The notes under the pieces: generated by a model
Databases searched by the model: none
Seen by the model: the letters and a program-made list of their open reading frames with translations, nothing else
Told to the model about the DNA's origin: nothing
Program-made: the position numbers and the translations under genes
Shown: piece after piece, positions 7,336 to 37,799 of the stretch
Layout: every line of letters starts with the position of its first letter
How positions within the stretch are numbered: position 1 is the first letter of the stretch
Assembly: GCA_030789695.1 (NCBI GenBank)
Contig: CM061142.1
Coordinates: 601,781,659-601,845,658 of the forward strand
Source of the DNA: Scilla litardierei
Lineage: Eukaryota > Streptophyta > Magnoliopsida > Asparagales > Asparagaceae
Direction: 5' to 3'
Length of the DNA stretch: 64,000 nucleotides

Positions 7336-7408
7336 TGGCGTTGAGGATAGGGTCCCCGTCGTCTAGGCCCGGTGGCTCCTCTGATCCCAGGTTTCTTCCT
7401 GACAAGGG
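7336..7408 (+). pseudogene. Start of the Transposase_28-like gene (segment 1)
   Basis: The ATG at 7336 opens MALRIGSPSSRPGGSSDPRF and runs 24 codons to the Tekay-1 insertion. Removing Tekay-1 and one copy of its target duplication continues the same frame into 17851 and on to the conserved block TVERIRAKYLTHPYGIRVPF, broken only by one TAG (17888-17890). This continuity is why I take 7336 as the true start. The protein is a mobile-element protein of unknown biochemical role. Confidence 0.7.
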
Positions 7409-7588
7409 TGTAATGGCCCTAATTTCAATGTACGCGTATTTGTACGCATTTTGGCGTAGATGCGTACGTATAATTTTTGGGAGTATGCCCGTATTTTTTC
7501 TTTAATTATTTTGGTGGAGGAATTATTTTTAAATGGTTTTAAACCCATTGTTGATATTAGTAAATAAGGGTATTGGGATGAAATACCA

Positions 7589-7601
7589 TGTATTTAAGAA
7601 G
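7589..7601 (+). promoter_or_regulatory. TATA box in Tekay-1 5' LTR
   Basis: TGTATTTAAGAAG, 180 bp into the LTR, with a second copy in the 3' LTR near 15237. This implies a short U3 and a very long R-U5. No palindrome array precedes it, unlike Tekay-2. Confidence 0.5.
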
Positions 7602-9721
7602 TATGGTGTATTTCACCATGTATTTTCATTTTCCTAAAATTCTAATTTTGAAATTTTGTAGCCATGACACTTAATATGGCTATGTGTCATGTTGTTAGCT
7701 TAAGCTAGGACACATGGCTTAATTTGACTAAGATGAGTGGAGGAGAGGGTTTCAGGGAATACAACTTTCAAGGCAAGACAACAAAAATAAAAAAAAAGAA
7801 AAAATCTCATTTTTTCACTCTCTCATTCTCTCCCTCATTTCCCCTAAGCCTGGCCGAAACCTATCTCCCCTATTTTATTTCATGTTGCTTCATCTTCCTC
7901 CATCAAACACACTTCCAAATAATCCCTCTTCAATCATTAAGAACCCACAAAAATTCACCCATCTTCCTAACTCCAAAAATTAGCCCAAATCACCTCAAAA
8001 ATCCAACTTTTGGAGACCAAATTGGAGCATGGAGAAGGAGGAATAGGAGGCTCTCCATCAAGGACTAAGAAGGGCCAAAGAACAATTTTGGAGGACTTTT
8101 AGAAGGTAGGATTTTCTAACATTCTAGTTAGGATTTAGTTTTAGGATTTGTGTTAGTAGAAATCCTTGGTGTAGGATGATTAGTAAAATAATTAGCTCAT
8201 TCTCATTGCTAGAAAAGGAATAATGAAAGTGAATGCCATAGATTTAGTGTTGTGTTTTAACATGTTGATAAACATTGCTAAAAAGTCCATATGTTAGTAT
8301 TGAAGGAACTTTTGGCTAGCTTGTCCCTAGACTTTATTCATGCTTGGATATGAAATTGTTGCATAATTATAGTTATATATATTACTACCATGTTCATTAT
8401 GTTAACTTGCTAAAAATGGTGCTAGATTGTAGTTTATGATGTTTAGAGAATTGATTTCTATGTTAGTTTCATTTTAGTATGAAATTGCAAGTTATATAAC
8501 CATATTGTGTGACATATGTTAAATAGTAAAAATATCCTCTTTGTAATGTTGGAATTACGTTAAGAATTTGTAAATATTGTAATCATATTCTGATGCTAGT
8601 GTAGATATGTTAATTGTGGCATTCAAACATGTTAGAACTAGATTTAGAAAGAAAACTAGTTGCTGGAAATTTTTAGTAGCAGGACAGTAACTTGTAAAAA
8701 TCATAAACAATAGTAGAAAAATAAGAAAAATATAATTAAGGACACTACGAAAAACTATAGAAAATTTCCTACAACTTTGAAGGGGACCGAGAGCCAATTC
8801 TGACTGCAGATGGGGTAACAGAGCCATTCTTTCTGGACTGACGCTTTTGGCAGATTTGTGTTGTAATTTTTAGTAAGAATTTCATCGTTGTACTTTTTGT
8901 TCTAAATTAATGTTGAACATGTTAGTTGTGCTTTATTATCATGCTCTTAAGATATGCTTTAATGATGATGTTTAATGTATTATGTTTCATTGATGATGAG
9001 AATGCAAGTATATTGAGACATAAGTGTATTTGAGACCAATAATTAACACTATGTCAAATGAAGGGATGCTCATCAAAAGAAAAATTTGTGAGTGAGGATG
9101 AGAGTATGACATCAGGAGTTCTCGTTCCATTTTGAAATGGGTGAGACTCCGGATGGGGGTTTGGGGGAAACACGGTAAATTGTAGGTGTTAAGGAGCAGA
9201 CGTAGTATGATTTCTCACTCGCTAAGTCACTCCCGTAAGGGGGAGTTGACTAGAGTTAGAGAGGCCGCTGGTGCGCTCGTGACGCACCAGGACGGTAAAT
9301 GATGGGTTTCTCCGTTTGTCCGACAGAAAAAACGAGATGAATCTCGCTCCGGTACCTTGTCCAATCGGGTACGTGTTACGAGAGGCCCCTCCAGTGCTCG
9401 TGTCACTAGAGTGGTACCACTTTTCACCCACCCTGGGTGAAGTCCGCTCCCTTAGCAGCCTATGGTTTATCCAGGTTCCAAATCAGAACAACAATTAAAT
9501 TTACTTAATTTAATTCTGAATTTCACTTCAGTTCTACTTTCTGTCGTTTACCTTCAGCACTTATTTTCTGTCCTTTAATTTCTGCATATTCTTGACATTG
9601 ATGTGACAGTTGCAGTTAGTTGGTTAGTTAGGAAGACCAGTTCTAAAACTGGGTTCTATTAGGGTGTTAGGAGTTCCTGCTGGGTCACGCGTTGACGTGT
9701 CCCATCCCGTGGTTTTCAGGT

Positions 9722-9832
9722 ATGAGTTTCGAGAAGTCTTTGGGTGTCCCGGAGCTAGAGACAGATGCCAGTACAGCGGAGGTGGAGCCTATATGCGACC
9801 TCGTTCTGTTAGACTTCCCAGGTTTAGATTAG
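9722..9832 (+). CDS. LTR-embedded short acidic ORF (36 aa)
   Basis: The ORF starts MSFEKSLGVPEL and ends LLDFPGLD. It has nine Asp/Glu and a single Lys. It begins two bases after GTGGTTTTCAG, a good 3' splice site, so in a spliced leader it could be the first ORF. Acidic ORFs of similar length lie at the equivalent place in three other LTR families in this window (23208, 52212 and 60299 minus), although sequence identity to those is low. The 3' LTR copy is frameshifted. No known family is recognised and translation is unproven. Confidence 0.45.
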   Translation: MSFEKSLGVPELETDASTAEVEPICDLVLLDFPGLD

Positions 9833-10197
9833 TGGGTGTGTTGTATCGGGTGGACTTTTGTACTTTTGGGCTGGGGGATTCTACTTTTGTTGTACACGCT
9901 TTTTGTACCCCCTTTGTACAGCTGATGCTTGTATGTATAAGAACTTATGTACGTGATGTAATGTAACTTCTGTGTTGATGTATTTCTTTTTCAGTACTGC
10001 GTTTTATTTTCTGTTGGAGCACTTTTCTTTTCTCTGTGTACTATTCTAGTGTTATTGCAGTGGCCTGCTCATTATTTTATATTAAACCACAAAAAATGCC
10101 TAGTAGTATTTAGATAAGTGGGCTCGAAGCCTGAGTCTGAATACTACGACGGCCTCGTTAGCTACGCTCCCCGTACTTGGGTGAGCGGGGCATGACA

Positions 10198-10230
10198 GGT
10201 TTTTGTGGTGGCCCATGAAGGTCCGCTCAC
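10198..10230 (+). other. Putative primer-binding region of Tekay-1
   Basis: Starting 11 bases after the LTR end is TGGTGGCCCATGAAGGTCC. The same block (TGGTGGCCCATGCAGGTCC) follows the Tekay-2 LTR at about the same distance, and a shorter relative follows the third LTR. Position fits a primer-binding site but I do not recognise a matching tRNA 3' end. Confidence 0.4.
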
Positions 10231-11467: not shown

Positions 11468-11576
11468 GTACCTATTTTCTTTTTAGAGTTGAATGCTTTG
11501 TTATTTTAGTATGTTATTTTTGTTGCTGTGACTAGGATGTTTAGATTCTTATGTTAGTTTATGTTTATCCTCTTAG
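11468..11576 (+). other. Intron-like segment between gag and protease (Tekay-1)
   Basis: 109 bp with GTACCT at the 5' end and CCTCTTAG at the 3' end, T-rich inside. Removal joins VITG directly to VIRVASFPDLSHFDS, the protease start, in frame. Tekay-2 and the third element have GT...AG segments at exactly the same codon (112 and 76 bp) with unrelated internal sequence. All three lengths leave remainder 1 on division by 3, so retention always shifts frame. Confidence 0.75.
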
Positions 11577-14500
11577 GTGTTATTAGAGTTGCTTCCTTCC
11601 CTGACTTGTCACATTTTGATTCAAGAGCATCCCATTGCTTCCTGTCTCAGCAGTTTATGACTAGGAATTCATTAGTAGTAGACTCCTTTGCTTCTAGTTG
11701 GAATATCCGTACAGGGAGTGGAGTGATCCGTAGTTCTTCGGGATACCGACAGTGTCCTGTTGAGATTTGTGGACGTAGGCTGTATGCAGATTTCTTAGTG
11801 ATGGAGATGCCTCATTTTGAAGCAGTGTTTGGGATGGACTGGTTAGGGATGTTCTATGCCACTATAAATTATAGGCTCAGGAGGATAGTGTTTCAGATTC
11901 CTGATCATCCAGAGTTTGAGTTTCTTAGTGGTAGTAGTTCCCTTGGACCATTGAAGTTTAAGGCCAGCCCAGTAGAAGTGATGATGGAGATGGATGCTGA
12001 ACCTGTATTGCCGAGGGTAGTCCGAGATTTTCCTGATGTCTTTCCAGACGATATCTATGGACTTCCTCTGGATAGATCATTGGAGTTCACCATCGATCTG
12101 ATTCCAGGCACTCAACCGATTGCGAAGGCTCCATACTGTATGGCTCCTCCAGAGTTAGCAGAGCTTCGTAGTCAGTTGAAGGATTTGTCAGAGCGTGGTT
12201 AGATCCAGCCAAGTGTTTCGCCATGGGGTACGCCAGTGCTTTTGGTGAATAAGAAGGATGGATCTCGAAGGATATGCATTGACTACCGGGAGTTGAATAA
12301 AGTTACTATGAAGAACAAGTATACTCTTCCTAAGATTGATGACATCTTTGATCAGTTGGATGGATCTCGTGTGTATTCAATGCTAGATTTGAGAAGCGAG
12401 TATCATTAAGTGAAGGTCAGAGAATCAGATATTCTGAAGACTGCATTTAGAACTCGGTATGGTCATTATGAGTTTTTAGTGATGCCTTTCGGTGTTACTA
12501 ACGCACCAGCCACATTCATAAGATTGATGAACCAAGTCTTCTATGAGTATTTGGATAAGTTTGTGGTCGTCTTTATAGATGATATCTTGGTGTACTCAAG
12601 ATCAGTGGAAGATCATGCTGAGCACCTGAGGATAGTCCTGGAGACTCTGAGACAGCACCAGTTATATGCTAAGTATAGCAAGTGTCAGTTTTGGCTGACC
12701 AAGGTTGCTTTTCTGGGACATGTTGTATCCGGTGATGGGATAGCTGTAGATCCAGAGAAGGTTGCTGCAGTAGAGAAGTGGCCAGTTCCTAAGTCAGTAA
12801 CGGAGATCAGAAGTTTCTTGGGATTGGCTGGGTACTACATGAAGTTCATCAAAGATTTCTCTAAGATCGCTGCACCGATGACTCATCTAACCAAGAAGAA
12901 TGTTGCTTACAGTTGGTTAGAAGAATGTCAGCAAGCATTTGATGAACTGAAGCATAGTTTGATCACTGCACCTGTCCTGACGATTCCAGACCGTTCAGGT
13001 GGATATGAGTTTATTGTGATGCGTCAGGCAGAGGATTGGGATGTGTTCTCCATCAGCATGGTAGGGTAGTAGCTTATTCTTCTAGATTGTTGAAGACTCA
13101 TGAGAGGAACTATCCTATGCATGACTTGGACTTAGCAGCAGTGGTGTTTGCATTGAAGTTGTGGTGGCATTTTCTTCTGGGTGAACGTGTAAAGATATAC
13201 ACAGATCACAAGAGTTTGAAGTACGTGTTCACCCAGAAAGAGCTGAATATGCGGTAGCGCTGATGGCTTGAGTTGATGGCTGATTATGACGTCGACTTCC
13301 AATATCACACTGGGAAAGTTAACATAGTACCTGATGCTCTTAGTCGTATGCCGACAATGACGATGTTGACAGCTCAGAGAGAACTTCGGGGTGATATTTG
13401 GCAAATGGAGATTGAAGTTGTCTTACCTGGTTCCTCAGTAATGATGATGAACTTGCAGGTTCAATCTGATTTAGTTGAGAGGATTAGGGCAGCTTAGTCT
13501 GGCGATGCAAAGTTTAAGAAGATTCGCGAGCAGATAGAAGCCGGACTTCGTAATGATTTCTGTATTCATGAAGATGGATCACTGAGTTTTGGGATCAGGA
13601 TTTGTGTGCCATCAGGTGACATTCGGGATGAACTGTTGAAAGAAGCTCAAAGATCACCTTATTCTATCCATCCTGGAGGCACCAAAATGTATCGTGATCT
13701 GTGACAACATTTTTGGTGGCACGTCATGAAGCGTAGTGTGGCTAGAAGTGTAGCTTCATATTTGATATGTCAGCAAGTCAAGGCCGAACATCAGAGAACG
13801 TCAGGACTTCTGCAGCCTCTTCCAATTCCAGAGTGGAAGTGGCAGCATGTGACGATGGATTTTGTAACTGGCTTTCCTCGCACTTCTCGAGGACATGATG
13901 ATATTTGGGTAATCGTTGACCGATTAACCAAATCAGCTCACTTCATACCATTTCGAGTAGGCCAGTCAACAGGACATCTTGCTAAGAGATATATGGAGGT
14001 GAGATTCATTGTTTTGTTTCTGTTTGTTTATTGTTGGTCTAGATTCTGATTAGTCATGTATGCAGGAAATCGTGAGACTTCACGGAGTGCCTGTATGCAT
14101 AGTCTCCGACCGTGACACTAGATTCACGTCTCATTTTTGGAGAAGTCTGCAGGCTAGCTTGGGAACTCAGCTGAGTTTCAGCACTGCATACCATCCACAG
14201 ACAGACGGTCAGTCGGAAAGGATAATTCAGATTCTAGAAGATATGCTGAGGTCGTGCATGCCGGATTTCAAGGGTGCTTGGGACGAACATCTACATCTGG
14301 TTGAATTCGCCTACAATAACAGTTATCAAGCTAGTATAGGCATGGCACCATTTGCAGCTTTGTATGGAAGGAAGTTTCGATCTCCTCTCAATTGGGATGA
14401 TGTTGGAGACCGTGAATTGTTGGGCCCTGATATGATCGCTGAAACCGTAGATGTTGTGAGAGTCGTCAGAGACAATCTTCGTATAGCTCAGGACCGTTAT

Positions 14501-14961
14501 AAGCACTGTGTAGATGCGAAGAGGCGACACTTGGAATTTCAGCCAGGAGAGTTAGTATTTTTGAATATCTCGCCAACACGAGGGCTGATTCGTTTTGGAA
14601 GACGTGGAAAGCTGAGCCCAAGATTTATTGGACCTTTTGAAGTTCTGGCTCGTGTTGGAGAAGTGGCTTATAGAATTGAATTGCCAGCATCTCTTGAGGG
14701 AGTGCATAATGTGTTTCACATATCGCAACTCAGGAGATGTGTTGGAAATCCTGATCATGTCGTTGACTTCTCTGAGATCGAAGTGCGATCGGACTTAACC
14801 TTGATCAGCAGCCTATGGCTATTCTAGACCGGAGGCAGAAGATGTTGAGGAAGAAGTCGATCAACCTAGTGAGGGTTATGTGGTACCGAGAGTCACCAGG
14901 GGAGTCTACCTGGGAACTCGAGGATGAGATGAGAGAGAAGTACCCTCATTTGTTTGTCTGA
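11577..14961 (+). pseudogene. Tekay-1 pol: PR-RT-RH-IN-chromodomain, with stops
   Basis: Protease opens at 11577; its catalytic DSG reads DSR, so it is probably dead. RT spans about 12100-12990 with the catalytic box [12 protein letters not shown] intact. RNase H covers 13020-13330, after a frameshift at about 13020 where CDASG should start. Integrase has HHCC-type residues (SIHPGGTKMY, VASYLICQQV) at 13660-13790, the DD35E region with MDFVTGFP and VSDRDTRF, and a GPY/F-like segment at 14600-14690. A chromodomain (STWELEDEMREKYPHLF) lies at 14905-14955 in another frame. Stops at 12200, 12407, 13255, 13261, 13495 and 13702 all fit C-to-T or G-to-A changes in Gln, Arg or Trp codons. A second intron interrupts integrase (13999-14065). 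Confidence 0.88.
13999..14065 (+). other. Intron-like segment in Tekay-1 integrase
   Basis: 67 bp, GTGAGATT at the 5' end and GTATGCAG at the 3' end. Splicing joins KRYMEEIVRLHGVPV without loss or gain. Tekay-2 has a 71-bp segment at the same codon; the third element has the joined form in its DNA (56298-56301). Confidence 0.8.
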
Positions 14962-15035: not shown

Positions 15036-15055
15036 TTATTTTAAGGGGGGTAGGA
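15036..15055 (+). other. Polypurine tract of Tekay-1
   Basis: Purine-rich sequence TTTTAAGGGGGGTAGGA directly before the 3' LTR, preceded by ATTCCGAGGACTGAATTT. The Tekay-2 element has the same context (CCGAGGACGGAATTT...GGGGAGGA). Confidence 0.75.
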
Positions 15056-17845
15056 TGTAATGGCCCTAATTTCAATGTACGCGTATTTGTACGCATTTTG
15101 GCGTAGATGCATACGTATAATTTTTGGGAGTATGCCCGTATTTTTTCTTTAATTATTTTGGTGGAGGAATTATTTTTAAATGGTTTTAAACCCATTGTTG
15201 ATATTAGTAAATAAGGGTATTGGGATGAAATACCATGTATTTAAGAAGTATGGTGTATTTCACCATGTATTTTCATTTTCCTAAAATTCTAATTTTGAAA
15301 TTTTGTAGCCATGACACTTAATATGGTATGTGTCATGTTGTTAGCTTAAGCTAGGACACATGGCTTAATTTGACTAAGATGAGTGGAGGAGAGGGTTTCA
15401 GGGAATACAACTTTCAAGGCAAGACAACAAAAATAAAGAAAAAAATAAAAAATCTCATTTTTTCACTCTCTCATTCTCTCCCTCATTTCCCCTAAGCCTG
15501 GCCGAAACCTATCTCCCCTATTTTCTTTCATGTTGCTTCATCTTCCTCCATCAAACACACTTCCAAATAATCCCTCTTCAATCATTAAGAACCCACAAAA
15601 ATTCACCCATCTTCCTAACTCCAAAAATTAGCCCAAATCACCTCAAAAATCCAACTTTTGGAGACCAAATTGGAGCATGGAGAAGGAGGAATAGGAGGCT
15701 CTCCATCAAGGACTAAGAAGGGCCAAAGAACAATTTTGGAGGACTTTTAGAAGGTAGGATTTTCTAACATTCTAGTTAGGATTTAGTTTTAGGATTTGTG
15801 TTAGTAGAAATCCTTGGTGTAGGATGATTAGTAAAATAATTAGCTCATTCTCATTGCTAGAAAAGGAATAATGAAAGTGCATGCCATAGATTTAGTGTTG
15901 TGTTTTAACATGTTGATAAACATTGCTAAAAAGTCCATATGTTAGTATTGAAGGAACTTTTGGCTAGCTTGTCCCTAGACTTTATTCATGCTTGGATATG
16001 AAATTGTTGCATAATTATAGTTATATATATTACTACCATGTTCATTATGTTAACTTGCTGAAAATGGTGCTAGATTGTAGTTTATGATGTTTAGAGAATT
16101 GATTTCTATGTTAGTTTCATTTTAGTAGGAAATTGCAAGTTATATAACCATATTGTGTGACATATGTTAAATAGTAAAAATATCCTCTTTGTAATGTTGG
16201 AATTATGTTAAGAATTTGTAAATGTTGTAGTCTTATTCTCATGCTAGTGTAGATATGTTAATTGTGGCATTCAAACATGTTAGAACTAGATTTAGAAAGA
16301 AAACTAGTTGCTGGAAATTTTTAGTAGCAGGATAGTAACTTGTAAAAATCATAAAAAATAGTAGACAAATCAGAAAAATATAAGTAAGGACACTACAAAA
16401 AACTACAGAAAATTTCCTACAACTTTGAAGGGGACCGAGAGCCAATGCTGACTGCAGATAAGGTAACAGAGCCATTCTTTCTGTACTGACGCTTTTGGCA
16501 GATTTGTGTTGTAATTTTGAGTAGGAATTTCATCGTTGTACTTTTTGTTCTAAATTAATGTTGAACATGTTAGTTGTGCTTTATTATCATGCTCTTAAGA
16601 TATGCTTTAATGATGATGTTTAATGTATTATGTTTCATTGATGATGAGAATGCAAGTATGTTGAGACATAAGTGTATTTGAGACCACTAACTAACACTAT
16701 GTCAAATGAAGGGATGCTCATCAAAAGAAAAATTTGTGAGTCAGGATGAGAGTATGACATCGGGAGTTCTCGTTCCATTTTGAAATGGGTGAGACTCCGG
16801 ATGGGGGTTTGGGGGAAACACTGGTAAATTTTAGGTGTTAAGGAGCGGACGTAGTATGATTTCTCACTCGCTAAGTCACTCCCATAAGGGGGAGTTGACT
16901 AGAGTTAGAGAGGCCGCTGGTGCGCTCGTGACGCACCAGGACGGTAAATGATGGTTTTCTCCGTTTGTCCGACAGAAAAACCAAGATGAGTCTCGCTCCG
17001 GTACCTTGTCCAGTCGGGTACGGAGTTACGAGAGGCCCCTCTAGTGCTCGTTTTGCTGGAGTGGTACCACTTTTCACCCATCCTGAGTGAAGTTCGCTCC
17101 CTTAGCAGCCTATGGTTTATCCGGGTTCCAAATCAGAACGACAATTAAATTTAATTAATTTAATTCTGAATTTCACTTCAGTTCTACTTTCTGTCATTTA
17201 CCTTCATCACTTATTTTCTGTCCTTTAATTTCTGCTATTCTTGAGATTGCTGTGACACTTGCAGTTAGTTGGTTAGTTAGGAAGACCAGTTCTAAAACTG
17301 GATTCTACTAGGGTGTTAGGAGTTTCTACTAGGTCACGCGTTGACGTGTCCCATCCCGTGGTTTTCAGGTATGAGTTCCGAGCAGTCTTCGGGTGTCCCG
17401 GAGCCAGAGACCGATGCCAGTAAGCAGAGGTGGAGCCTACGGGCGACCTCGTTCAGTTAGACTTCCCGGGTATAGATTAGTGGGTGTGTTGTACCGGGTG
17501 GACTTTTGTACTTTTGGGCTGGGGGATTCTACTTTTGTTGTACCCGCTTTTTGTACCCCCTTTGTACAGCTGATGCTTGTATGTATAAGAACTTATGTAC
17601 GTGATGTAATGTAAATTCTGTGTTGATGTATTTCCTTTTCAGTACTGCTTTTTATTTTCTGTTGGAGCTCTTTTCTTTTCTCTGTGTACTATTCCATTGT
17701 TATTGCAGTGGCCTGCTCATTATTTTATATTAAACCACAAAAAATGCCTAGTAGTATTTAGATAAGAGTGCTCGAAGCCTGAGTCTGAATACTACGTCGA
17801 CCTCTTTAGCTACGCTCCCCGTACTTGGGTAAGCGGGGCGTGACA
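15056..17845 (+). repeat. 3' LTR of Tekay-1
   Basis: 2790 bp, nearly identical to 7409-10197 by eye, ending GGGGCGTGACA. It contains the decayed copy of the acidic ORF at 17371. Confidence 0.92.
17371..17460 (+). pseudogene. Frameshifted copy of the LTR acidic ORF
   Basis: Starts MSSEQSSGVPEPETDAS, clearly the partner of 9722. A one-base deletion after GATGCCAGTA shifts the frame and it ends after 29 codons (SLRATSFS). The first 17 codons keep the acidic character; four are changed relative to the 5' LTR copy. Confidence 0.5.
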
Positions 17846-21211: not shown

Positions 21212-21507
21212 TGTAACGACTGGGTTTTAATGTACTTGGATTATCTATATTATATATATATATATATGTTTTGGTGTATTTTCTCCTTATGTGTGGTTTT
21301 CGTCTCCGTAGCTTTCATTTTCGATCGTTTCGTCGTGATTTTCTAGCTTCTTCCTTAGAATCGTTGATCTTGGAGTAAGTCGCTCATGACGAACTTCAAA
21401 TCGCTCACATTTTAGAGTTAGAGTGATCTTAGAAGCTATAGGAATCTTCCCGAAGCTTCGCGCTTCATTTCGGCACTTTTCGTGCACCTTAGTTGGTTCA
21501 AGAAGGG

Positions 21508-21905
21508 GGACCAACCGACTATATTGAGATCTAGTCGGTCAGGAACTCTACTGGAACCGACTAGTTCATTGAATCAATTGTACATGAGTTACTGTTTACT
21601 CTTAGTCGGTCTAAGAACAATCACCGACCGACTAGATGTGGAACTAGTCGGTCAGAACTTGCTCTCAGACCGACTAGTTCCTTCAATCAATTTTACCTAA
21701 GTTACTGTTTATCGTTAGTCGGTCCAAGAACAACCACCGACCGACTAGGTTGCAAACTAGTCGGTCAGACATTGTTCTTTAACCGACTAATTCATTGACC
21801 ATTTTGTCGACCTGAGTTACTATTTGGTGTTAGTCGGTCACAGTTAGTCTACCGACCGACTAGTTCTTGAACTAGTCGGTCAGTCAACCTTCTTTGACCG
21901 ACTAA
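21508..21905. repeat. Alternating CCGACTAG / CTAGTCGG array
   Basis: Fifteen motifs strictly alternate between forward (ACCGACTAG) and reverse (CTAGTCGGT) orientation. They are organised as roughly 112-bp tandem units with about 3.5 copies. Sequence between motifs has diverged while the motifs are nearly invariant. The array ends 45 bp before the TATA box. A second copy is in the 3' LTR at about 28748-29148. Confidence 0.85.
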
Positions 21906-21948
21906 CCGCTGTCGAAACCCTAGATTCGCCCAGCCGCCGGATGCTTTC

Positions 21949-21960
21949 CTATTTAAACCC
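21949..21960 (+). promoter_or_regulatory. TATA box of Tekay-2 LTR
   Basis: CTATTTAAACCC, followed by a CT-rich leader. The third element has the same box (CCTATTTAAACCC, near 49904). Confidence 0.65.
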
Positions 21961-23207
21961 CTCTTCGTTTCTTTTCTTTCCTTCTTCTCTCTTGGCCGTT
22001 TTTCTTTCCCCCTTGACCTCTGATCTCCCCCAATCTTCCCCTAGCCTTCCTCCTTCCTCAAGAGTCTCTCCCCCTCTCCATTTAGGCTGGCCATCACCTC
22101 TAGGCCGCCGGAAAACCCCCAAAAAACCCCCAAAATCTCATTTCTCCAGATTTTCTCCACATTTCCAGATCTGAGCCCTAGTTCCCCGGATCGTTTCTTC
22201 CGTCGCCACACTTGCTCGACATCGTTCTTTTGCTAACGATTCGGTAATAACTCGATTCTATCATATTCTCATAACCCATTTGTGTTTTTGTAAAACCCTA
22301 ATAAAAAAAGGTTGGATGTTGTTCTAATATTGATTTGCCATGGCAGCGATCTCATCCCCATAGCTAACATTTTGTGACGTGCCTCGTTGATCGTCATCCT
22401 TGGTGCTAGGTAAGTGAAACTTGCCACTTAGGGTTTTGGGCCATGTCTTAGGCCATTTGCTTATTGTAGGCGTAAAAGAGACTAGGCGACAAAATGATAC
22501 TCGCCTAGGTGCAATTTCAGGATCTAGCTTGACAACGAAGCTAGATCCGTCGTTTATCATGTTGCATAACTACCATGTCATGTTTCATTTCAATTAACGG
22601 TACGCGAATTAACTGTCATGTCATTGCATTCTTTAAATGTTCCCGTGATTGCGTAACTCCGTTACACCTAGTGAATTGATTGAGGCTAGGCACCTGCTTT
22701 TAGCGGGCACAACCCTACGCCAAATTGTGAACCTGAAAACAAGCTCTTGTGCGGGGAAACCCTGGCTCATTTACTGAGCATCGTGTACAGGGACCCTGGC
22801 TTGTTTACGTGTGGGAGGGGTAAGGGTTAAGCGGCCAATCAACTGGGAGTCTGCCCGATCAGCAACTTCAGTTGTAAGGCGTAAACTCTGGGTTCTGGGG
22901 TAGTGTGAAGTGGCCAATCAGTGTGAATGTCCAACGGTTCAGCTGTAAGGCGTAAACATCTACAAATAACTTGAAACATGACTAGTGAAAAGATTGAGAT
23001 TGTTAGTAGCTTGGCTACTCCTGTCAAGCCATGATAATTGTTCTCTTGCACCTATTGTTACAACATGCCTTACTTGTGCTCTCATACCATAATTGCCATG
23101 TCATGCATACTATAACTGCTAGGTTGTTAGTTTACCTTATTTTCAGTTTCCTTGCCCAAGTCTTTTAGACTTGCTGACATGTGCCCCTTTACTCTTTTGG
23201 GCGACAC

Positions 23208-23315
23208 ATGTTAGATCCTGAGCCTGAGAGTGCTGCGGATGACATGGTGTTTGCTGACGCTGAGTCAGAGCCTGCGTTCGTTGAGGAGTACGAGGACACG
23301 GGCGATCAGTCGTAG
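23208..23315 (+). CDS. LTR-embedded short acidic ORF (35 aa)
   Basis: Starts MLDPEPESAADD and ends EDTGDQS. It contains 13 Asp/Glu and no Lys or Arg. The ATG lies in the 3' arm of a potential hairpin (ACATGTGCCC ... GGGCGACACATGT). The 3' LTR copy (30441) is intact with three amino-acid changes. The family D LTR carries an ORF of exactly the same length, starting MSGLESEF and also ending EDTGDQS (60299 to 60192, minus). Shared length and terminus between diverged LTRs suggest selection on the peptide. Function unknown; no homologous domain recognised. Confidence 0.6.
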   Translation: MLDPEPESAADDMVFADAESEPAFVEEYEDTGDQS

Positions 23316-23802
23316 ATGCTGCTTGTGTTCTTTGTTTTAGACTGTTTTTGTTGTCGGTGCGTAGCACCAATACTCTGTTTATGTTTGTCCTTGTTGGCCT
23401 TGTTCTGGGCCTTTAGACTCTTTCCTTTAGCCTGGTGGCTTTTCTGGATGTTGAACTTAAATTTTAATATTTGGACATTACTGAGATTTGGGATTTTATT
23501 TCTGTATCTCCTTGTGTTATTATCTTGTTCTGATCGTGGTTACAGGGACCTGTGTATGTTTTATTGACGCTTATCAGGCGTGTGGCTTCACAGCTCCACG
23601 TCTGTGCGGACCTTCTCACGTCTCGCCTCCATTTTAGGGAAGCGGGTTGTGACATGTTTTATTGGTGGCCCATGCAGGTCCTCTCTTCTGTAACTGCAAA
23701 TTATCGGAACAACGATAATAATATTAGAATGTCCAATAAACTAAGTTCGACATCCGAGTCATAAGCTATGAGTCTAATCTGGTTCGTTTTCTGTGTCACT
23801 AG

Positions 23803-24931
23803 ATGGCAGGAAGGCGATTTACCCGTGGTGGTGGTGGTGCGCCCCCTCATGACGAGGAGCCTGAGCGGGAGCCCACCAATGGGGAGATGATTCGGATGAT
23901 GCTTCAGATGATGCAGGTGTAGCAGGGCGTGCTCCTGTAAGTCCAGAATGCTCCAGTTGTTCAGGGTGCTCGGGCAATCCAGGATGCCCCTCGCTCCGAG
24001 CCGGGAACGAAGCAATTTCGGGAGCTGGGTCCCGCTTATTTTGATGGGTCTGAGGGTCCTCTAGCTACCGATGAGTGGATTCGGAACATTGAGGATAATT
24101 TGAAAATGGCGAAGATCAGCCCGGCTGGATGGGTTGATTTGGTGAAGAGGCAACTCAAGGATAATGCTCGGAATTGGTGGGATGCGGAAGAGAAGATGCT
24201 GGTGGAGCCGATAGCTTGGGCTAACTTTAAGTCCAGGTTTGATGAGGAGTTCTTTCCGAAGGCTGCTAGGAAGGAGATGCTTCAGCGCTTTATTGATCTG
24301 AAGCAAGGGAGCTTGACGGTGGACCAGTACCACCAAGAGTTCACTAGGCTGAGTCGGTTCGCACCAAAGATGGTGCAGGATGCTGATGAGAGGGCTCAGA
24401 GGTTCCTGCAGGGACTTGCTTTGGAGCTTCAGAGTTTTGTGTCTTCCTCTGATCTGGACTCTTATCAGAAGGTTCTGGTGGCTGCGAGGAGGAAGGAGCT
24501 GAACCTGAGCCAGAGGAGAGGACATGTTTCTGGTGCTGGGAAGAGGCCTATAGAGCAGGCCAGGGCTTTGGTCAGGCCGGGGTTCAGGCCCAACCAGCCA
24601 GTTCAGTTTAAGAGGCCAGGAGGGCCTAATTTGAAGACTTGCCATTTCTGCGGCAAGCCTGGCCACATCAAGGATCAGTGTAGGACATTTCTGGGCCAGT
24701 TTTTGGTTTGTGGTGAAGCTTCTCATGTCGCGAAGGATTGTCGGCATGCGAATCAGTTGCGGAGGACACCTGTTGCAGCACAGCCGTTGCAGCAGAGAGC
24801 ACATGTTCCTGCTGGACGTGGAGCAGCTCTTGTCCCACAGAGGCAGGCTTTTCAGCATGCTTTTCCGCCGAGGAGGCAGGCTTTCCTGATGACCGAGGCG
24901 GAGAGTGAGGCTGTGGATGAGGTTATCACAG
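23803..24931 (+). pseudogene. Tekay-2 gag with two nonsense codons
   Basis: ATG 23803 opens MAGRRFTRGGGGAPPHDEEP. Stops at 23920 (TAG) and 23938 (TAA) fall in a Gln-rich N-terminal stretch and fit C-to-T changes of CAG/CAA. Downstream the frame is open with the gag core (LVKRQLKDNARNWWDAEEKM) and one good zinc knuckle, CHFCGKPGHIKDQC. The second knuckle has lost its first Cys (FLVCGEASHVAKDC). It ends VDEVITG at the intron donor. Confidence 0.85.
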
Positions 24932-25043
24932 GTAACTCTCCTTCTAGCTGTTTCTTCCTTAGTTAGTTTGATTGTTAGATTATGTTGTTTGCTTGTACAT
25001 GATTGTTTGCTAGACTAGGGTTTGATTGTTAGACTGTTTGTAG
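24932..25043 (+). other. Intron-like segment between gag and protease (Tekay-2)
   Basis: 112 bp, GTAACTCTCC at the 5' end and CTGTTTGTAG at the 3' end. Splicing fuses VITG to VVLVCTFPARVLFDSG in frame. Unspliced reading stops at 24964 after NSPSSCFFLS. Confidence 0.78.
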
Positions 25044-27960
25044 GTGTGGTTTTGGTGTGCACATTTCCTGCACGAGTCCTCTTTGACTCTGGTATGTCGA
25101 TGTGCATTATTTCTCCGAGCTTCGTGGAGAAGCATTCCTTGTCGACGTCCCCTCTTTCCAAGAGTTGGAATATCGTTATAGGGAATGGCGTGGTCTCGGT
25201 GCATCTTGGTTGCAATTCTTGCCCGTTGGTGGTCTGTGGACATGAGCTTTACGCTGATTTCATTGTCCACGACATCATCAACTATGATGCGGTCCTTGGG
25301 ATGGATTGGCTTGCGAGCTTCTATGCTACGATCGACTGTCGGAGGAAGAAGGTGGTGTTCGAGATTCCCAGACATCCAGTATTTTAGTTCAGCCGGGGTA
25401 GCAGTTCGCTCGGTCCGGTCAGATTTCGGGCCAGGCCGATGGGGATTGTGGCTATGCAGATGGAGCTGGAGAGGCCAGCGGTTGTGCGGGACTTCGATGA
25501 CGTCTTCCCCGAGGAGATGTCTGGGTTGCCACCCGATCGAGCTCTCGAGTTTTCGATTGATCTTATTCCGGGAGCGCATCCAATTTCGAAGGCGCCATAT
25601 CGTATGGCTCCCGCAAAGTTGGAGGAATTGCGGAAGCAGCTGGATGAGCTTTTGCAGAAGGGTTATGTCAATCCTAGTGTGTCTCCGTGGGGAGCACCGG
25701 TGTTGCTGGTGAAGAAGAAGGATGGTTCGCGTCGCATGTGCGTGGACTATCGGGAGCTGAATGCGGTGACCATCAAGAATAAATACACGTTGCCTCGCAT
25801 CGATGATATTTTTGATCAGCTTGGAGGTTCGAGGGTGTTTTCGAAGTTGGATCTGAGGAGTGGTTATCATCAGCTGAAGGTGAAGAAGGAAGATGTTCCG
25901 AAGACAGCATTCAGGACGAAGTATGGACACTATGAGTTTTTGGTTATGCCTTTCGGTGTAACCAATGCACCCGCAGTTTTCTTGAATCTGATGAATCTGA
26001 TCTTCTACGACTTTTTAGACAAGTTTGTCGTTATCTTTATTAACGACATTCTGATCTATTCAAAGTCGGAGGAGGAGCATGCATCGCACTTGAGGATAGT
26101 GTTGGGGATTTTGAGGAAGCATCGTTTGTATGCTAAGTTTTTGAAGTACGAGTTTTGGATGGACAGAGTTGCTTTTCTCGGGCATGTGGTGACTGGAGAT
26201 GGTATTTCAGTGGATCCCGAGAAGATCAGGGCCATCAGAGAGTGGCCTGTTCCACAGTCAGCGTCTGAGATCCGGAGTTTCCTCGGGCTTGATGGTTACT
26301 ATCGGCGCTTCATTAAGGACTTTTCCAGTATCGCTAAGCCGATGACCAGATTGACGCAGAAGGATGTACCTTTTGTATGCCTTTGGTGTTCTGAGGGAGA
26401 GATTGACGACTGCCCCTATTCTTGTTGTGCCTGATCACAGCGGTGGATTTGAGATCTTTTGCGATGCTTCTGGCAAGGGTCTCGGTTATGTGTTGCATCA
26501 GCACGGGCATATTGTGGCGTATGCTTCGCGTCAGCTCAAGACTCATGAGAAGAATTACCCGACGCACGACTTGGAGTTGGTTGCTGTCGTGTTTGCACTC
26601 AAGATTTGGAGGCACTTCCTGCTGAGTGAGAAAGTGAAGATCTTCACCGATCACAAAAGCTTGAAGTATATTTTTACTCAGAAGGAGCTCAACATGCGAC
26701 ATCGTCGATGGTTGGAGCTCATGGCAGATTATGAGATTGATTTGCAGTATCACCCTGGCAAGGTGAATGTGGTTCCTGATGCGCTGAGTAGGCTTCCAGC
26801 GGTGATGTTGTTGACTTCGCAGTGGAGATTGCAGTAGGATTTTTGCGAGTCTGGATTTGAGATTGTTCTTCCTGGGGAGGCTTCTTCGTTGATGAGTATG
26901 CAGATTCAGTCGTCGATCTTGGATAGGATCAAGGCTGGCCAGGCTGAGGATCCGAAGCTGGTGAAGATTCGGGGGCAGGTGGAAGCCGGTCTGCGGACTG
27001 ACTTTTTGGTTCATGAGGATGGCTCGCTGAGGTTTGGAGCCAGGTTGTGTGTGCCGGTTGGGGATATTAGAGAGGTGTTGATGGTGGAGGCACACAGTTC
27101 GCCGTATTATGTGCATCCTGGTGGCACCAAGATGTACAAGGATCTTCGTCTGAACTATTGGTGGCATGGTATGAAGAGGAGTGTGGCTCGGAGTGTAGCC
27201 AAGTGCTTGGTTTGCCAGCAGGTAAAGGCGGAGCATCAGCGTACGTCAGGGTTGCTACAACCGCTTCCGATTCCGGAGTGGAAGTGGCAACACATCACTA
27301 TGGATTTCGTGACTGGACTACCTCGGAGTCCGAAGCAGAATGACGCGATTTGGGTGATCATAGATTGATTGACCAAATCCGTGCACTTTATTCCTTTCCG
27401 AGTAGGACAGTCCACTGAGGCGCTAGCGAGGAGATATATGGAGGTAAATTCTTTTACTCTCCGTTTTTATTTCCTTTTCCTAGTTTAGATAGTGATGTGA
27501 CGTGAATCATGCAGGAGATCATACGACTTCACGGAGTCCCTGTGAGTATCGTGTCGGACAGAGACACGAGGTTCACATCTCAGTTCTGGCAGAGTTTGCA
27601 GAAGAGTTTGGGTACGCGTCTGAATTTCAGCACGGCGTACCTTCCGCAGACGGATGGCCAGTCCGAGAGGACGATTAAGATCTTGGAAGACATGCTGAGG
27701 GCGTGCATGTTGGATTTCAAGGGTTCGTGAGAGGACCATCTACATCTGGTAGAGTTTTCCTACAACAACAGCTTCCAGGCGAGTATTGGCATGGCGCCTT
27801 TCATCGCGCTTTATGGGAGGAAATGTCGGTCGCCATTGAGTTGTGAGGGTGATGTGGTGACACGGCTCGCCAGGAGAGTCAACTTGGGAGAATGAGGATG
27901 AGATGCAAGAGCTTTTCCCACTTTTGTTCCCGGACACATGCGTGTTGGGAAATTCCGAGG
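25044..27960 (+). pseudogene. Tekay-2 pol, RT active site changed and integrase deleted
   Basis: Protease has an intact LFDSG (25080-25094). A TAG sits at 25385 in the PR-RT linker. RT runs 25500-26370; its catalytic box reads [10 protein letters not shown], so the first Asp of the pair is Asn (GAC to AAC), which should inactivate it. A frameshift/deletion at about 26378 precedes RNase H ([22 protein letters not shown], 26440-26800), and a stop at 26835 follows. Integrase keeps its zinc region (HPGGTKMY, CLVCQQV) and MDFVTGLP; TGA at 27366 replaces an Arg codon. After GRKCRSPLS (27837) several hundred bases are missing compared with Tekay-1, joining directly to the end of the chromodomain ([14 protein letters not shown]). 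Confidence 0.87.
27444..27514 (+). other. Intron-like segment in Tekay-2 integrase
   Basis: 71 bp, GTAAATTC at the 5' end and AATCATGCAG at the 3' end. Same codon position as 13999 in Tekay-1. Splicing joins RRYME to [10 protein letters not shown]. Confidence 0.8.
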
Positions 27961-27987: not shown

Positions 27988-28048
27988 TGTAACGACTGGG
28001 TTTTCATGTACTTGGATTATCTGTATTATATATATATATATATATATA

Positions 28049-28448
28049 GGGTAAAGGGATCCTAAGGTGCCTCCTTAGATTCAATCTAAGGAGGCGCCCC
28101 CATTTCCCCCCAACTCACACATTTTTTTGAAATTTTTTTGCATGGGTTTATTGTTCACCTTATGGATGATCAACATACCAAATTTCAAGGGATTCCAATA
28201 CTTTTTGAGCCCTCATCTACCTCTTACAACTTCGTGGGTTTTCAGCACGTTTTTAGACCGTTGAAATTGTAAGGGGTAGATGGTGGCTCAAAAAGTATTG
28301 GAATCCCTTGAAATTTGGTATGTTGATCATCCATGATGTGAACAACAACCCCATGAAAAAAAATTTCCAAAAAAATTGTTGGAGATGGGGGAAAATGGGG
28401 GCGCCTCCTTAGATTTTCATCTAAGGAGGCACCTTAGATACCCTTTTT

Positions 28449-28450
<2 letters not shown>
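28049..28450. mobile_element. Foldback MITE inserted in a (TA)n tract
   Basis: A 402-bp element that is nearly one large inverted repeat. Left end GGGTAAAGGGATCCTAAGG pairs with right end ACCTTAGATACCCTTTTTCC. Inner arms also match in inverted orientation, including the CCAAATTTCAAGGGATTCCA block near 28170. Each end contains a smaller palindrome (CCTCCTTAGATT...AATCTAAGGAGG). It lies between TA repeats and is absent from the 5' LTR, so insertion post-dates Tekay-2. A TA target duplication fits but cannot be proven inside (TA)n. No coding capacity. Confidence 0.85.
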
Positions 28451-28505
<55 letters not shown>

Positions 28506-30440
28506 TTGGTGGATTTTCTCCTTATGTGTGGTTTTCGTCTCCGTAGCTTTCATTTTCGATCGTTTCGTCGTGATTTTCTAGCTTCTTCCTTAGAATCGTT
28601 GATCTTGGAGTAAGTCGCTCATGAAGAACTTCAAATCGCTCACATTTTAGAGTTAGAGTGATCTTAGAAGCTATAGGAATCTTCCCGAAGCTTCGCGCTT
28701 CATTTCGGCACTATTCGTGCACCTTAGTTGGTTCAAGAAGGGGGACCAACCGACTAGATTGAGATCTAGTCGGTCAGGAACTCTACTGGAACCGACTAGT
28801 TCATTGAATCAATTGTACAGGAGTTACTGTTTACTCTTAGTCGGTCTAAGAACAATCACCGACCGACTAGATGTGGAACTAGTCGGTCAGAACTTGCTCT
28901 CAGACTGACTAGTTCCTTCAATCAATTTTACCTAAGTTATTGTTTATCGTTAGTCGGTCCAAGAACAACCACCGACCGACTAGGTTGCAAACTAGTCGAT
29001 CAGACATTGTTCTTTAACCGACTAATTCATTGACCATTTTGTCGACCTGAGTTACTATTTGGTGTTAGTCGGCCACAGTTAGTCTACCGACCGACTAGTT
29101 CTTGAACTAGTCGATCAGCCAACCTTCTTTGACCGACTAACCGCTGTCGAAACCCTAGATTTCGCCCAGCCGCCGGATGCTTTCCTATTTAAACCCCTCT
29201 TCATTTCTTTTCTTTCCTTCTTCTCTCTTGGCCGTTTTTCTTTCCCCCTTGACCTCTGATCTCCCCCAATCTTCCCCTAGCCTTCCTCCTTCCTCAAGAC
29301 TCTCTCCCCCTCTCCATTTAGGCCGGCCATCACCTCTAGGCCGCCGGAAAACCCCCAAAACCCCCAAAATCTCATTTCTCCAGATTTTCTCCCCATTTCC
29401 AGATCTGAGCCCTAGTTCCCCGGATCGTTTCTTCCGTCGCCGCGCTTGCTCGGCATCGTTCTTTCGCTAACGATTCGGTAATAACTCGATTCTATCATAT
29501 TCTCATAACCCATTTGTGTTTTTGTAAAACCCTAATAAAACAAGGTTGGATGTTGTTCTAATATTGATTTGCCATGGCAGCGATCTCATCCCCGTAGCTA
29601 ACATTTTGTGACGTGCCTCGTTGATCGTCATCCTTGGTGCTAGGCAAGTGAAACTTGCCACTTAGGGTTTTGGGCCATGTCTTAGGCCATTTGCTTATTG
29701 TAGGCGTAAAAGAGACTAGGCGACGAAATGATACTCGCCTAGGCACAATTTCAGGAACTAGCTTGCCAACGAAGCTAGATCCGTCGTTTATCATGTTGCA
29801 TAACTACCATGTCATGTTTCATTTCAATTAACGGTACGCGAATTAACTGTCATGTCATTGCATTCTTTAAATGTTACCGTGATTACGTAACTCCGTTACA
29901 CCTAGTGAATTGATTGAGGCTAGGCACCTGCTTTTAGCAGGCACAATCCTACGCCAAATTGTGAACCTGAAAACAAGCTCTTGTGCAGGGCAACCCTGGC
30001 TCATTTACTGAGCATCGTGTACAGGGACCCTGGCTTGTTTACGTGTGGGAGGGGTAAGGGTTAAGCGGCCAATCAACTGGGAGTCTGCCCGATCAGCAAC
30101 TTCAATTGTAAGGCGTAAACACTGGGTTCTGGGGTAGTGTGAAGCGGCCAATCAGTGTGAATGTCCAACGGTTCAGCTGTAAGGCGTAAACATCTACAAA
30201 TAGCTTGAAACGTGACTAGTGAAAGATTGAGATTGTTAGTAGCTTGGCTACTCCTGTCAAGCCATGATAATTTTTCTCTTGCACCTATTGTTACAACATG
30301 CCTTACTTGTGCTCTCATACCATAATTGCCATGTCATGCATACTATAACTGCTAGGTTGTTAGTTTACCTTATTTTCAGTTTCCTTGCCCAAGTCTTTTA
30401 GACTTACTGACATGTGCCCCTTTACTCTTTTGGGCGACAC

Positions 30441-30548
30441 ATGTTAGATCCCGAGCCTGAGAGTGCTGCGGAGGACGTGGTGTTTGCTGACACTGAGTCA
30501 GAGCCTGCGTTCGTTGAGGAGTACGAGGACACGGGCGATCAGTCGTAG
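30441..30548 (+). CDS. Second copy of the Tekay-2 acidic ORF (35 aa)
   Basis: Starts MLDPEPESAAED and ends EDTGDQS. Same length as 23208-23315 with three conservative or neutral changes (D to E, M to V, A to T). Still open. Confidence 0.55.
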   Translation: MLDPEPESAAEDVVFADTESEPAFVEEYEDTGDQS

Positions 30549-33429
30549 AGGCTGCTTGTGTTCTTCGTTTTAGACTGTTTTTGTTGTCGATGCATAGCAC
30601 CAATACTCAATTTATGTTTGTCCTTGTTGGCCTTGTTCTGGGCCTTTAGACTCTTTCCTTTAGCCTGGTGGCTTTTCTGGATGTTGAACTTAAATTTTAA
30701 TATTTGGACATTGCTGAGATTTGGGATTTTATTTCTGTATCTCCTTGTGTTATTATCTTGTTCTGCTCGTGGTTACAGGGACCTGCGTATGTTTTATTGA
30801 CGCTTATCAGGCGTGTGGCTTCATAGCTCCACGTCTGTGCGGACCTTCTCACGTCTCGCCTCCATTTTAGGGAAGCGGGGCGTGACACTAGGGTACGGTC
30901 AAACTGTCAACCCCAATAATTGACTCCGGTTTGTTTCTATCGATCTTTAGTCCACTAATGTTGGACTTCTTCCAACATACTCTGATCAGAGGTTTTACTA
31001 AAGATCGAATTAACTCTACGACACTAACTCCCACTGACCGGGAGAGACGAATCCTCTCTTGGTCCTTATTCGCCTCGTACGCTTCAAGTGACACCCAATC
31101 AAAGACCTTTCGACAGGCCTAGCCTCGAAGCTAGGTCAATGATCTAAGTGCACTGTTCACGCACATGTTCGTAAAATGACCTCAAGTCAAAAGACCAACT
31201 TGCCTATCAGCACTAAGAGTTATCATTGACAGATTGGTCAATATAACCATATGATAACTCTTATGGATCGTTCAGTGAACTCATTCTCTAATGAGCACCT
31301 GTGTCTCATCTCTGACTTCGCCAAGTCAAACAATCATGCGATCATCGCCACCTCTAAACAGTGAAGACTAAGATACAATGGTCTATCCGATGTTTCGATA
31401 TCCTTGTCTCGAAACATCTACGACACGAACCCTTTTAGACTTATGCTACAGACGGTCAAACATTTCTCCATGATCGATATACTCATCTTGATACATATTT
31501 GACCTTGCATAAAGTCTCAGGACTTTACCTAAGTTACTATCTAATGTTAACTACATTATAATATAACTTAGATAAATTATTACCAAACATCTTACTGTTA
31601 TTTCGAACAAGATGTTTGTGCTATTCACACAAAGATAAATAGCCTTGAGGGCATCATCTCTCTACATCTCCCACTTGCACTTAGGCCCATTTATCCCGGT
31701 ATCTTATACCGTTTTTACACATAAGTGTTTCTAGACTTCATGTGGTAGAGCTTTCGTGAGTGGATCTGCAAAAACCGTCTACAATATAGACTTAAGGGGT
31801 TTCTATGTTCATGTTAGACCAAACATTTTAATCTCATTCAAATAATTCACTTGGTCTTCGGAATCCATAATATTTTATTTCCTTGGATCTTATCCAGCTC
31901 ATCGTACCTTATGATAATCATTTAAATTTGTTAGTGGTTATTTCAAATGGCTCATACCTATTTTTGATAAAGTATCAAACTCTTTGATTACTTTGTCAAA
32001 ATATATGTTCCATCCCTTTGTTGCCTCGCATGTAATTTATGCGCTCCCACTGACCTTGAAAACTTTCTGGCTAATTCATATAAGTTGGTTCGTCTAAATC
32101 ATATTTAGAAAAACGAACGTATAATCGAATGTTCCAATTTTCATAGTCATCATGAGCATTCTCATCGAGTTCGGTCCGAGTATATCCGTACACATCTGTT
32201 GGCGAGACAGTTTCAACATAATACATTTATAGGAATTAGGATGAAAACCGTTCTCAACCAACATAATTGTACTTCACTATTTTCCTTTCTTCTGCAATCT
32301 TCTAACTTGAAGATTTTCTTGCAGAAAATGAGGAAACATTTTCATTGGGCATGTAAACTAAATTCCAAAATTTATTTACGCACACAAACCTATTCTGATT
32401 GCATCAAGTTATAAATCGGAGTTACTACTCCGAATTTCATCCCAGAAGTTGACTAAGTCATCATAGATATGATGTCTAACTCGACAATTCGTCTCACGAG
32501 ATTCGAGTAATTATACAACTTCCTTACGATTGATTTAATGAATATTTTATTGATAATGTCCTCATAGAACATTATCAAAACATAAGCATTGCTATCTGGG
32601 AGTTAACCCAGAGGGATGACTTAACTCAGAGTCACTGGCTATGGATCGCACCAAGTCTAACTAAGTGCGATTCATATCTTTTAACACACCGATGTGTTAA
32701 CAGACTTGACCTGAGAGAAAATCACATTTTCTTTCAATTTCGCAAGATTTTATGTAACTAAGTATTTGACCATTCGATCTAATCGAATCAGTTTAAATAC
32801 TTTTGTCATTTTGTTCTTTATTTTATCAGACTTATGTTTCATCAAGAACATGCATCTTAATAAAATATACGAATAACTTATTTTGGTTAATCTAGACTCG
32901 GGTACATTAGTATGTACGAGACTGAGTTCGACAACTCATGCTCCCACTGTCTTACAGATGGGTTTCGGCCATTATATCTAAGAGGATAAGATTAACATGT
33001 GTCCGTAGACTTCATAATACAAGAGGTCAGACCCCTCTTTATGTGACTTGTGAAGCTTAGTCTCTTGATACGGTCTAGTCTATTTGCCATATAAGTTTGC
33101 TACTATCTTGTGTATTTATATATTAACATTTAATATATTATAGTTATTACAAATTACTAACACAAAACATTGCTTCAGAAGTAAGGTGACGACATTCGTC
33201 AAAATGTGTTAGACGTCTTTTGTATAACAATTATTCTGAAATCGTGACATCAAAATATGTCACATTTTTATTTCCTCCTATTTATGCCTTTACTAATGAT
33301 AAATATAACTAGCTTTCTCAATTGACTTTCCGGAGTGCCTTCTTCCTTTTCTAAATCATATTTAGATATTAAATAGCCCAACATAAATGTATAGCTATGC
33401 AAGCATATCATGTATCCAAACGCTTGAGC

Positions 33430-35932: not shown

Positions 35933-36298
35933 TGATCGTGCCCCGATGTGCACACGCACCCAGGACAGGGGACTAACCAGTCTTACCGCAAGCGCACGGT
36001 GTAGCGGCGAGCGGGTATCGAACACGAGGAGGGCAAACGACGATGTCTTCTTCAATTCACCTGGCTATAAGAACAGTCGAGAAATATTCGCAATAAAGCG
36101 GTCACAGTCGTTCAATCATATAAAGGAAATATCAAATTAATAAAGACGCCTAGAGATAGGGAATCCCTGCTACAAACTGTACCTCGTCATTGTGATTCGT
36201 AGGTTTCACAATTGCTAGACTTGCAATTCAGGTGAACTAGTTGCAACTAAATGTAGAACCAAGCTCACGCTCTCGCGCTATTTCCGGTCTATAGCAAA

Positions 36299-36983: not shown

Positions 36984-36998
36984 GGGGTTAAATACCCC
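36984..36998 (-). promoter_or_regulatory. TATA box of the Athila-type LTR
   Basis: Minus strand GGGGTATTTAACCCC, just downstream of the palindrome array. The TATA element is itself inside a palindrome. Confidence 0.6.
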
Positions 36999-37758: not shown

Positions 37759-37799
37759 CTCTTACTCGTCCTCGAGGAAGATGAGTAAAAAGCGAACCC

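Follow-up and report, generated by a model that had tools for sequence, protein, structure and literature searches.

In plant chromoviruses, for example those of Beta, a single Gag-Pol frame is described (PMC3605345), which leaves open how Gag comes to exceed Pol. A stretch of 64,000 nucleotides of Scilla litardierei DNA (here called the window) raises the question of whether host splicing could provide the excess. Its plus strand carries three long terminal repeat (LTR) elements, E1, E2, and E3, each representing one family, in which Gag and protease (PR) are separated by a short segment that starts with GT and ends with AG. We consider it likely that this is a retained spliceosomal intron of a chromovirus lineage, such that unspliced RNA would provide Gag and be the form that is copied, and spliced RNA would provide Gag-Pol. 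If this is true, a retained intron at the Gag/PR border is a direct answer to the problem of Gag excess in one lineage.

A shared segment at the Gag/PR border

The segment occupies positions 11468 to 11576 in E1 (109 bp; CTG/GTACCT...CTCTTAG/GT, with slashes at the exon borders), 24932 to 25043 in E2 (112 bp; CAG/GTAACT...TTTGTAG/GT), and 53800 to 53875 in E3 (76 bp; CAG/GTACAA...ACCGTAG/GT), all on the plus strand and in phase 1. The donor cuts the glycine codon of a VITG motif after its first base, and the second exon starts with GT in all three elements. A first-pass annotation of the window had given these coordinates, ends, and lengths exactly for all three, and its claim of a common position stands, the phase-1 site in the VITG glycine codon being identical in each. 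It had also held that removal joins Gag to PR in frame, and both arithmetic and separate translation of the pieces agree, with the remainder of the glycine codon resuming the PR frame. Chance does not appear to be a serious reading of the shared position, because the site is common to three families whose reverse transcriptase (RT) pieces are ~70% identical and because copies without exactly this segment exist.

The Gag frame of E1, with Retrotrans_gag and zf-CCHC domains, runs on the plus strand from its ATG at 10324 to a first stop at 11535, inside the segment, and the open Gag frame of E2 (23941 to 24966, plus strand) likewise ends inside it. The E1 protease exon (RVP_2 by Pfam, in a scanned piece from 11558 to 12202) extends on the same strand from 11577 to its stop at 12202. 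The window copy of E3 has no Gag-frame stop within the 76 bp; the stop lies beyond the segment, in the wrong frame. The T content of the segment is 54, 48, and 29% in E1, E2, and E3, and that of the 60 bases before and after it is 23 and 40% (E1), 20 and 40% (E2), and 12 and 30% (E3).

The segment across genomic copies

We searched the window's own assembly (3.68 Gb) with the RT pieces of E1, E2, and E3. Each search had more than 82,000 first-look candidates, from which 150 scored copies were listed, and the Gag/PR border was examined in 70 E1, 40 E2, and 20 E3 copies. Some were chosen for long open frames (L031 to L041 for E1, L051 to L060 and L071 to L080 for E2, and L171 to L177 for E3), some also on the basis of frame class or of hit length (L042 to L050, L061 to L070 and L081 to L090, and part of L178 to L190), and others by rank (L091 to L110 and L111 to L130; L131 to L150 and L151 to L170). 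Three E1-family copies with a deletion or truncation (L022, L024, and L032) were left out of the Gag/PR counts; in L022, most of Gag is gone and the Gag start is fused to the protease.

Among these sampled copies the segment is present in 67 of 67 readable E1, 40 of 40 E2, and 14 of 20 E3 copies, and is exactly absent from 0, 0, and 6, respectively. The GT end is found in 64 of the 67 E1 copies and the AG end in 65, and both ends are found in all 40 E2 copies. Insertions and deletions (indels) occur within the segment at 0.046 (E1) and 0.040 (E2) per aligned cell, versus 0 to 0.002 in the flanks of 60 bases, and in both families those in the segment do not keep the frame, the flanks being almost free of them. 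Segment lengths leave remainders of 0, 1, and 2 modulo 3 in 28, 14, and 25 E1 copies and in 9, 8, and 23 E2 copies; the remainder of 1 reported initially thus holds for the three window elements by coincidence and fails as a family trait, with relatives in all three classes. A Gag-frame stop lies inside the segment in all 107 readable E1 and E2 copies, from which it follows, as had been proposed, that unspliced RNA of these families would yield Gag alone.

That the break is no intron at all, and that ribosomes cross it by frameshifting, readthrough, or re-initiation, has a precedent in the +1 frameshifting attributed to most gypsy-superfamily elements in one source (PMC3735527). For these elements we find it scarcely credible and largely refuted: the frame offset is 0, 1, or 2 within one family, the splice ends are conserved, and exact empty copies exist. 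A fixed frameshift cannot serve because segment lengths fall in all three frames and a Gag-frame stop lies inside the segment of each readable E1 and E2 copy, and the relatives in all three frames exclude fixed readthrough as well. The first-pass annotation had also set frameshifting aside, and the spread of lengths argues for doing so.

In the E3 family the segment measures 79 bp in 11 copies, 76 bp in two, and 75 bp in one, and the stop is mostly downstream of it, in the wrong frame. Frames around RT in the 150 listed E3 copies, many of which are shorter, are most commonly 1154 amino acids (aa) long, with five rows of 1525 to 1531 aa, one of 1292 aa, and one of 1285 aa. The last of these (L177) has a 75-bp segment, a multiple of 3 with no in-frame stop, so that the frame runs through. 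The five longest rows are intact and open through the site, and all lack exactly the GT...AG segment, as does the 1292-aa row. The first-pass annotation had counted intact relatives with an open frame through this region against splicing, and five such copies do exist, but the exact loss of GT...AG in them supports splicing. All six E3 losses are among the seven copies chosen for frames longer than 1158 aa; the segment is kept in the other 13, which were taken from the upper end of the ranking.

Exact empty sites and independent losses

A genome-wide search for the junction left by exact removal, with up to 2 mismatches allowed (other elements may be among the 2-mismatch matches), gave 3 E1-type matches (control 0), 33 E3-type matches (control 0), and 36 E2-type matches (control 2), of which 23 are perfect, the E2 figure referring to the 26-base pattern only. 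Flanks were read at 3 of 3 E1-type, 10 of 33 E3-type, and 0 of 36 E2-type matches, and 0 bp lie between the flanks in all 13. The flanks of all three E1-type sites are 87 to 93% identical to E1, and among the E3-type sites read, nine have clear flanks and one (L217) has weak ones. One E1 copy (L211/L214), which is among the 150 listed and outside the sample of 70, is exactly without both this segment and the second intron described below. Base-exact empty sites, together with non-frame-keeping indels that are almost confined to the segment, strongly support the initial claim that the segment is an intron, and presumably a spliceosomal one.

Uninterrupted relatives occur in many plants, as would be expected if the empty copies kept an ancestral intronless state and the intron had been gained or spread by conversion. 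We hold this to be highly improbable, given how the empty E3 copies are scattered among intron-bearing ones. In a tree of the 20 E3 copies and the window copy, built on 521 non-intron columns, six changes are needed to account for the six losses, and well-supported branches force at least three of these changes. A single clade of intronless E3 copies is rejected by the approximately unbiased test (p-AU 0.0018, with an identical pair on both sides left free), and over the compared columns L172, which has lost the intron, is identical to L180, which has it. The empty copy L212 is separated from intron-bearing copies by 7 differences in 281 to 300 flank bases, and a history in which the intron was gained exactly, several times over, would require more events.

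A probable second intron, within integrase

A second GT...AG segment, unmentioned in the first-pass annotation, interrupts integrase in E1 (13999 to 14065, plus strand, 67 bp; GAG/GTGAGA...ATGCAG/GAA) and at the same codon border in E2 (27444 to 27514, plus strand, 71 bp), in phase 0 in both. The integrase of E3 is uninterrupted at this site (56292 to 56315, plus strand), and the blastn pieces of E1 versus E3 and of E2 versus E3 break here. The integrase intron is exactly absent from 19 of 67 E1 and 11 of 38 E2 readable copies (30 of 105 together) and from 20 of 20 E3 copies, with L029, L115, and L129 (E1) and L153 and L156 (E2) unreadable at this site; in E1 and E2, a good many of these absences come from copies picked by frame length. 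Among rows not picked by frame, it is lost in 9 of 65, versus 0 of 68 for the Gag/PR intron, with a nominal Fisher p of 0.0012 that is a guide only, the copies being related. The samples taken by rank lack the integrase intron in 7 of 18 cases (20 lower-ranked E1 copies) and in 1 of 18 (20 E2 copies), and the Gag/PR intron is kept in 20 of 20 in both. On a tree that combines 50 E1 copies and the window E2 and E3, the loss label needs five changes, at least two of them forced.

The lengths of the frames around RT are consistent with these two interruptions. They are often 830 aa and never above 1128 aa among the 150 listed E1 copies, and commonly ~826 to 835 aa, with 1108 to 1115 aa in 10 rows and none above 1115 aa, among the 150 listed E2 copies, with many shorter rows in both. 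The length classes appear to be those expected from two introns, each present or absent.

Exact losses might also be produced without any spliced RNA, as deletions between short direct repeats by replication slippage or template switching. The E3 family lends itself to this: its Gag/PR segment begins and ends with 6 common bases in 12 of the 14 copies that carry the intron, and there are 33 empty-site matches. The E1 and E2 segments have less homology (mostly 3 and mostly 4 common bases, respectively), yet give 3 and 36 empty-site matches, and the integrase intron, whose ends share mostly 3 bases in intron-bearing copies, has been lost repeatedly at its exact GT...AG borders. When 49 E1 copies were compared with one copy (173 kb), only one deletion of at least 20 bp recurred, 12 of them lacking exactly the integrase intron. 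Slippage is rejected as the general cause of the losses on these grounds, and we think such deletions a very unlikely explanation of the pattern, with some E3 losses as the place where they may have acted. For the losses in E1, in E2, and in integrase, the evidence points to splicing and subsequent reverse transcription.

A proposed splicing switch between Gag and Gag-Pol

If the Gag/PR intron acts as we propose, translation of unspliced RNA would end just after Gag, either at a stop in the intron or soon past it in the wrong frame, and the same RNA would normally be the form copied into new elements. Removal of the intron would leave an RNA that encodes Gag-Pol, and its retention would put Gag in excess; in E1 and E2, the integrase intron would have to be spliced out too for full Pol. 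If the copied RNA normally keeps the Gag/PR intron, as nearly all sampled copies do, an RNA able to give Gag but not Pol would exist. The intron architecture and its exact, recurrent absence at splice sites find support in the genome sequence, and we infer that the absences arose through splicing and then reverse transcription, and that export and translation extend to RNA in which the intron is retained. The retained fraction, and thus the degree of splicing, would then likely set the Gag:Pol ratio.

Several points weigh against this proposal. The support for splicing is genomic, the empty sites are raw counts (3, 36, and 33) as opposed to rates, and the E3 Gag/PR losses, taken by themselves, could be slippage, from which the same junction is expected. 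Many plant relatives are open through this border, which reads VVTG in them (P0043, P0059, P0091, P0102, and P0108; some of these are gene models, perhaps spliced by annotators), as is the relative P0124, and Gag excess would thus be attainable without an intron; the border intron is probably not general among plant relatives. Splice-site strength speaks on both sides. Ranked within each element by approximate plant frequencies, the integrase introns have donors of rank 1 and acceptors of rank 2 to 3, and the Gag/PR introns have donors of rank 16, 2, and 8 and acceptors of rank 99, 6, and 66 in E1, E2, and E3. The Gag/PR sites are weaker in E1 and E3, which would fit retention and is suggestive only, but not in E2, whose strong donor and acceptor belong with the contrary evidence.

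The intron could also be real and yet be no switch, with cytoplasmic mRNA almost all spliced and giving only Gag-Pol, and with the intron persisting through the copying of nuclear or poorly spliced RNA. Relatives with a continuous frame manage without it, including the Beta chromoviruses with the Tekay-clade Bongo (PMC3605345). The strong E2 sites fit such an intron as well, and the integrase intron is of no obvious use as a switch. We nevertheless regard this as unlikely, because an intron-retaining RNA that is copied in the cytoplasm can meet ribosomes there and would yield Gag, with a stop in 107 of 107 E1 and E2 copies, and because the Gag/PR intron is lost more rarely than the integrase intron in rows not picked by frame (the nominal comparison of related copies given above). 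This rarer loss may have its cause in splicing that is weak, in spliced RNA that is poorly packaged, or in selection.

We also offer, tentatively and as somewhat less likely than not, a fuller version of the proposed switch, in which the spliceosome would choose between Gag and Gag-Pol in one plant chromovirus lineage by means of two introns of unequal strength. The Gag/PR intron would be retained, with selection keeping it in the RNA that is copied, and the integrase intron would be efficiently removed, block full Pol from unspliced RNA, and be shed repeatedly in new copies. Many natural copies in the genome would then together form a fossil record of splicing. Retroelements copy RNA, and exact intronless copies can thus record splicing and packaging choices that are countable in a genome without an RNA experiment. 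Such counts make it testable how spliced and unspliced RNA are exported, packaged, and translated.

Window elements and neighboring features

Pfam matches from the pooled pieces of the three elements give the domain order Gag (Retrotrans_gag and zinc knuckle), PR (RVP_2), RT, ribonuclease H (RH), and integrase (IN), as in Ty3/gypsy. A chromodomain was sought in E1, where a putative remnant (14806 to 14958, plus strand; PF00385, E value of 1.5e-4) scores 22.0 bits and does not reach the curated cut-off of 25.1. The domain order fits the chromoviruses, to which E1, E2, and E3 probably belong. Tekay is the label of the first-pass annotation and is best treated as provisional; E1, E2, and E3 fall in no starred set of an RT tree of 118 rows, none of which is a named reference element.

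Self-blastn places the 5' LTR of E1 at 7405 to 10197 and its 3' LTR at 15052 to 17845 (96.6% identical), and the 5' LTR of E2 at 21242 to 23654 and its 3' LTR at 28476 to 30887 (97.4% identical). The 5' LTR of E3 extends over 49230 to 52549, with approximate ends, and its 3' LTR starts at ~57219, the aligned pieces being ~89% identical; all are on the plus strand. The stretch that follows the 5' LTR (10198 to 10230 in E1, 23655 to 23690 in E2, and 52550 to 52580 in E3) contains, some bases past the LTR end, TGGTGGCCCATG in E1 and E2 and TGTGGACCATG in E3. It looks unlike the usual initiator-methionine primer site.

Just upstream of the E2 3' LTR, at 28040 to 28460, there is by eye a long imperfect inverted repeat, a foldback resembling a miniature inverted-repeat transposable element. 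A further LTR element lies on the minus strand at 35933 to 47610, with an LTR pair that is 97.5% identical and long minus-strand frames, one of which (42906 to 44234) looks protease-like by eye. Elsewhere in the genome, two pairs of copies in the same orientation, C7:146175961 with 146183677 and C12:330797220 with 330805289, lie ~7.7 to 8.1 kb apart, a spacing that would be expected of tandem elements with a common LTR.

Comparison with relatives and known systems

A protein search with E1 Gag, in which only candidates sharing the most words were scored, gave one match, and that with E2 Gag gave five. In line with the proposed switch, P0122, a metagenomic Gag with 51% identity to that of E2, extends for 9 residues past VITG, up to either a stop or the end of its contig. 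Another metagenomic Gag, P0001, is related to E1 and ends shortly upstream of VITG, such that the border is not reached. Relatives were also sought in viral_contigs, where none was confirmed.

Spliced LTR elements in the literature searched (including PMC6317226) are Ogre, BARE1, EVADE, sunflower copia elements, CRR, Bagy2 env, and Cer1, and a 2025 review has introns generally absent from plant LTR retrotransposons and names Ogre and EVADE as the notable exceptions to this (PMC12786077). No description of a Gag/PR intron in a plant chromovirus was found in the literature searched, which leaves most subscription papers outside it, and its novelty is limited to that searchable literature. The CRR centromeric retrotransposons and Cer1 of Caenorhabditis elegans are Ty3/gypsy elements with spliced transcripts (PMC3735527, PMC12786077, PMC10309623); CRR splicing is said to remove rt, and the spliced Cer1 mRNA is said to encode a nuclear protein needed for export, neither being described as a Gag/PR intron in these sources. 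Ordinary Tekay/Del chromoviruses such as Bongo of Beta resemble our elements in the order Gag-PR-RT-RH-IN and in the chromodomain of which E1 has a putative remnant, and they differ in that a continuous gag-pol frame is reported for the Beta chromoviruses, including the Tekay-clade Bongo (PMC3605345).

The closest known system is Ogre, a Ty3/gypsy element of the Tat lineage and not a chromovirus. Like Ogre, E1, E2, and E3 have an intron between coding frames that is kept in most genomic copies (107 of 107 in E1 and E2, and 14 of 20 in E3, where seven copies were picked by frame). The Ogre intron lies between PROT and RT, whereas theirs lies between Gag and PR, and they further differ in the putative E1 chromodomain remnant, which speaks against Tat, in the second intron in integrase, and in the copies that are exactly without introns. 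Their intron would thus work like that of Ogre and is not Ogre by position.

The likeness to BARE1 and EVADE of Ty1/copia (PMC3735527, PMC12786077) is that host splicing decides which RNA gives Gag only. The BARE/EVADE shGAG class does not fit E1, E2, and E3, in which the frame of the unspliced form ends after Gag and the domains follow the Ty3/gypsy order. Splicing in BARE1 and EVADE leads to the Gag-only RNA, whereas in E1, E2, and E3 it would lead to the Gag-Pol RNA; if this is true, the copia logic is reversed, and splicing makes Pol, not Gag.
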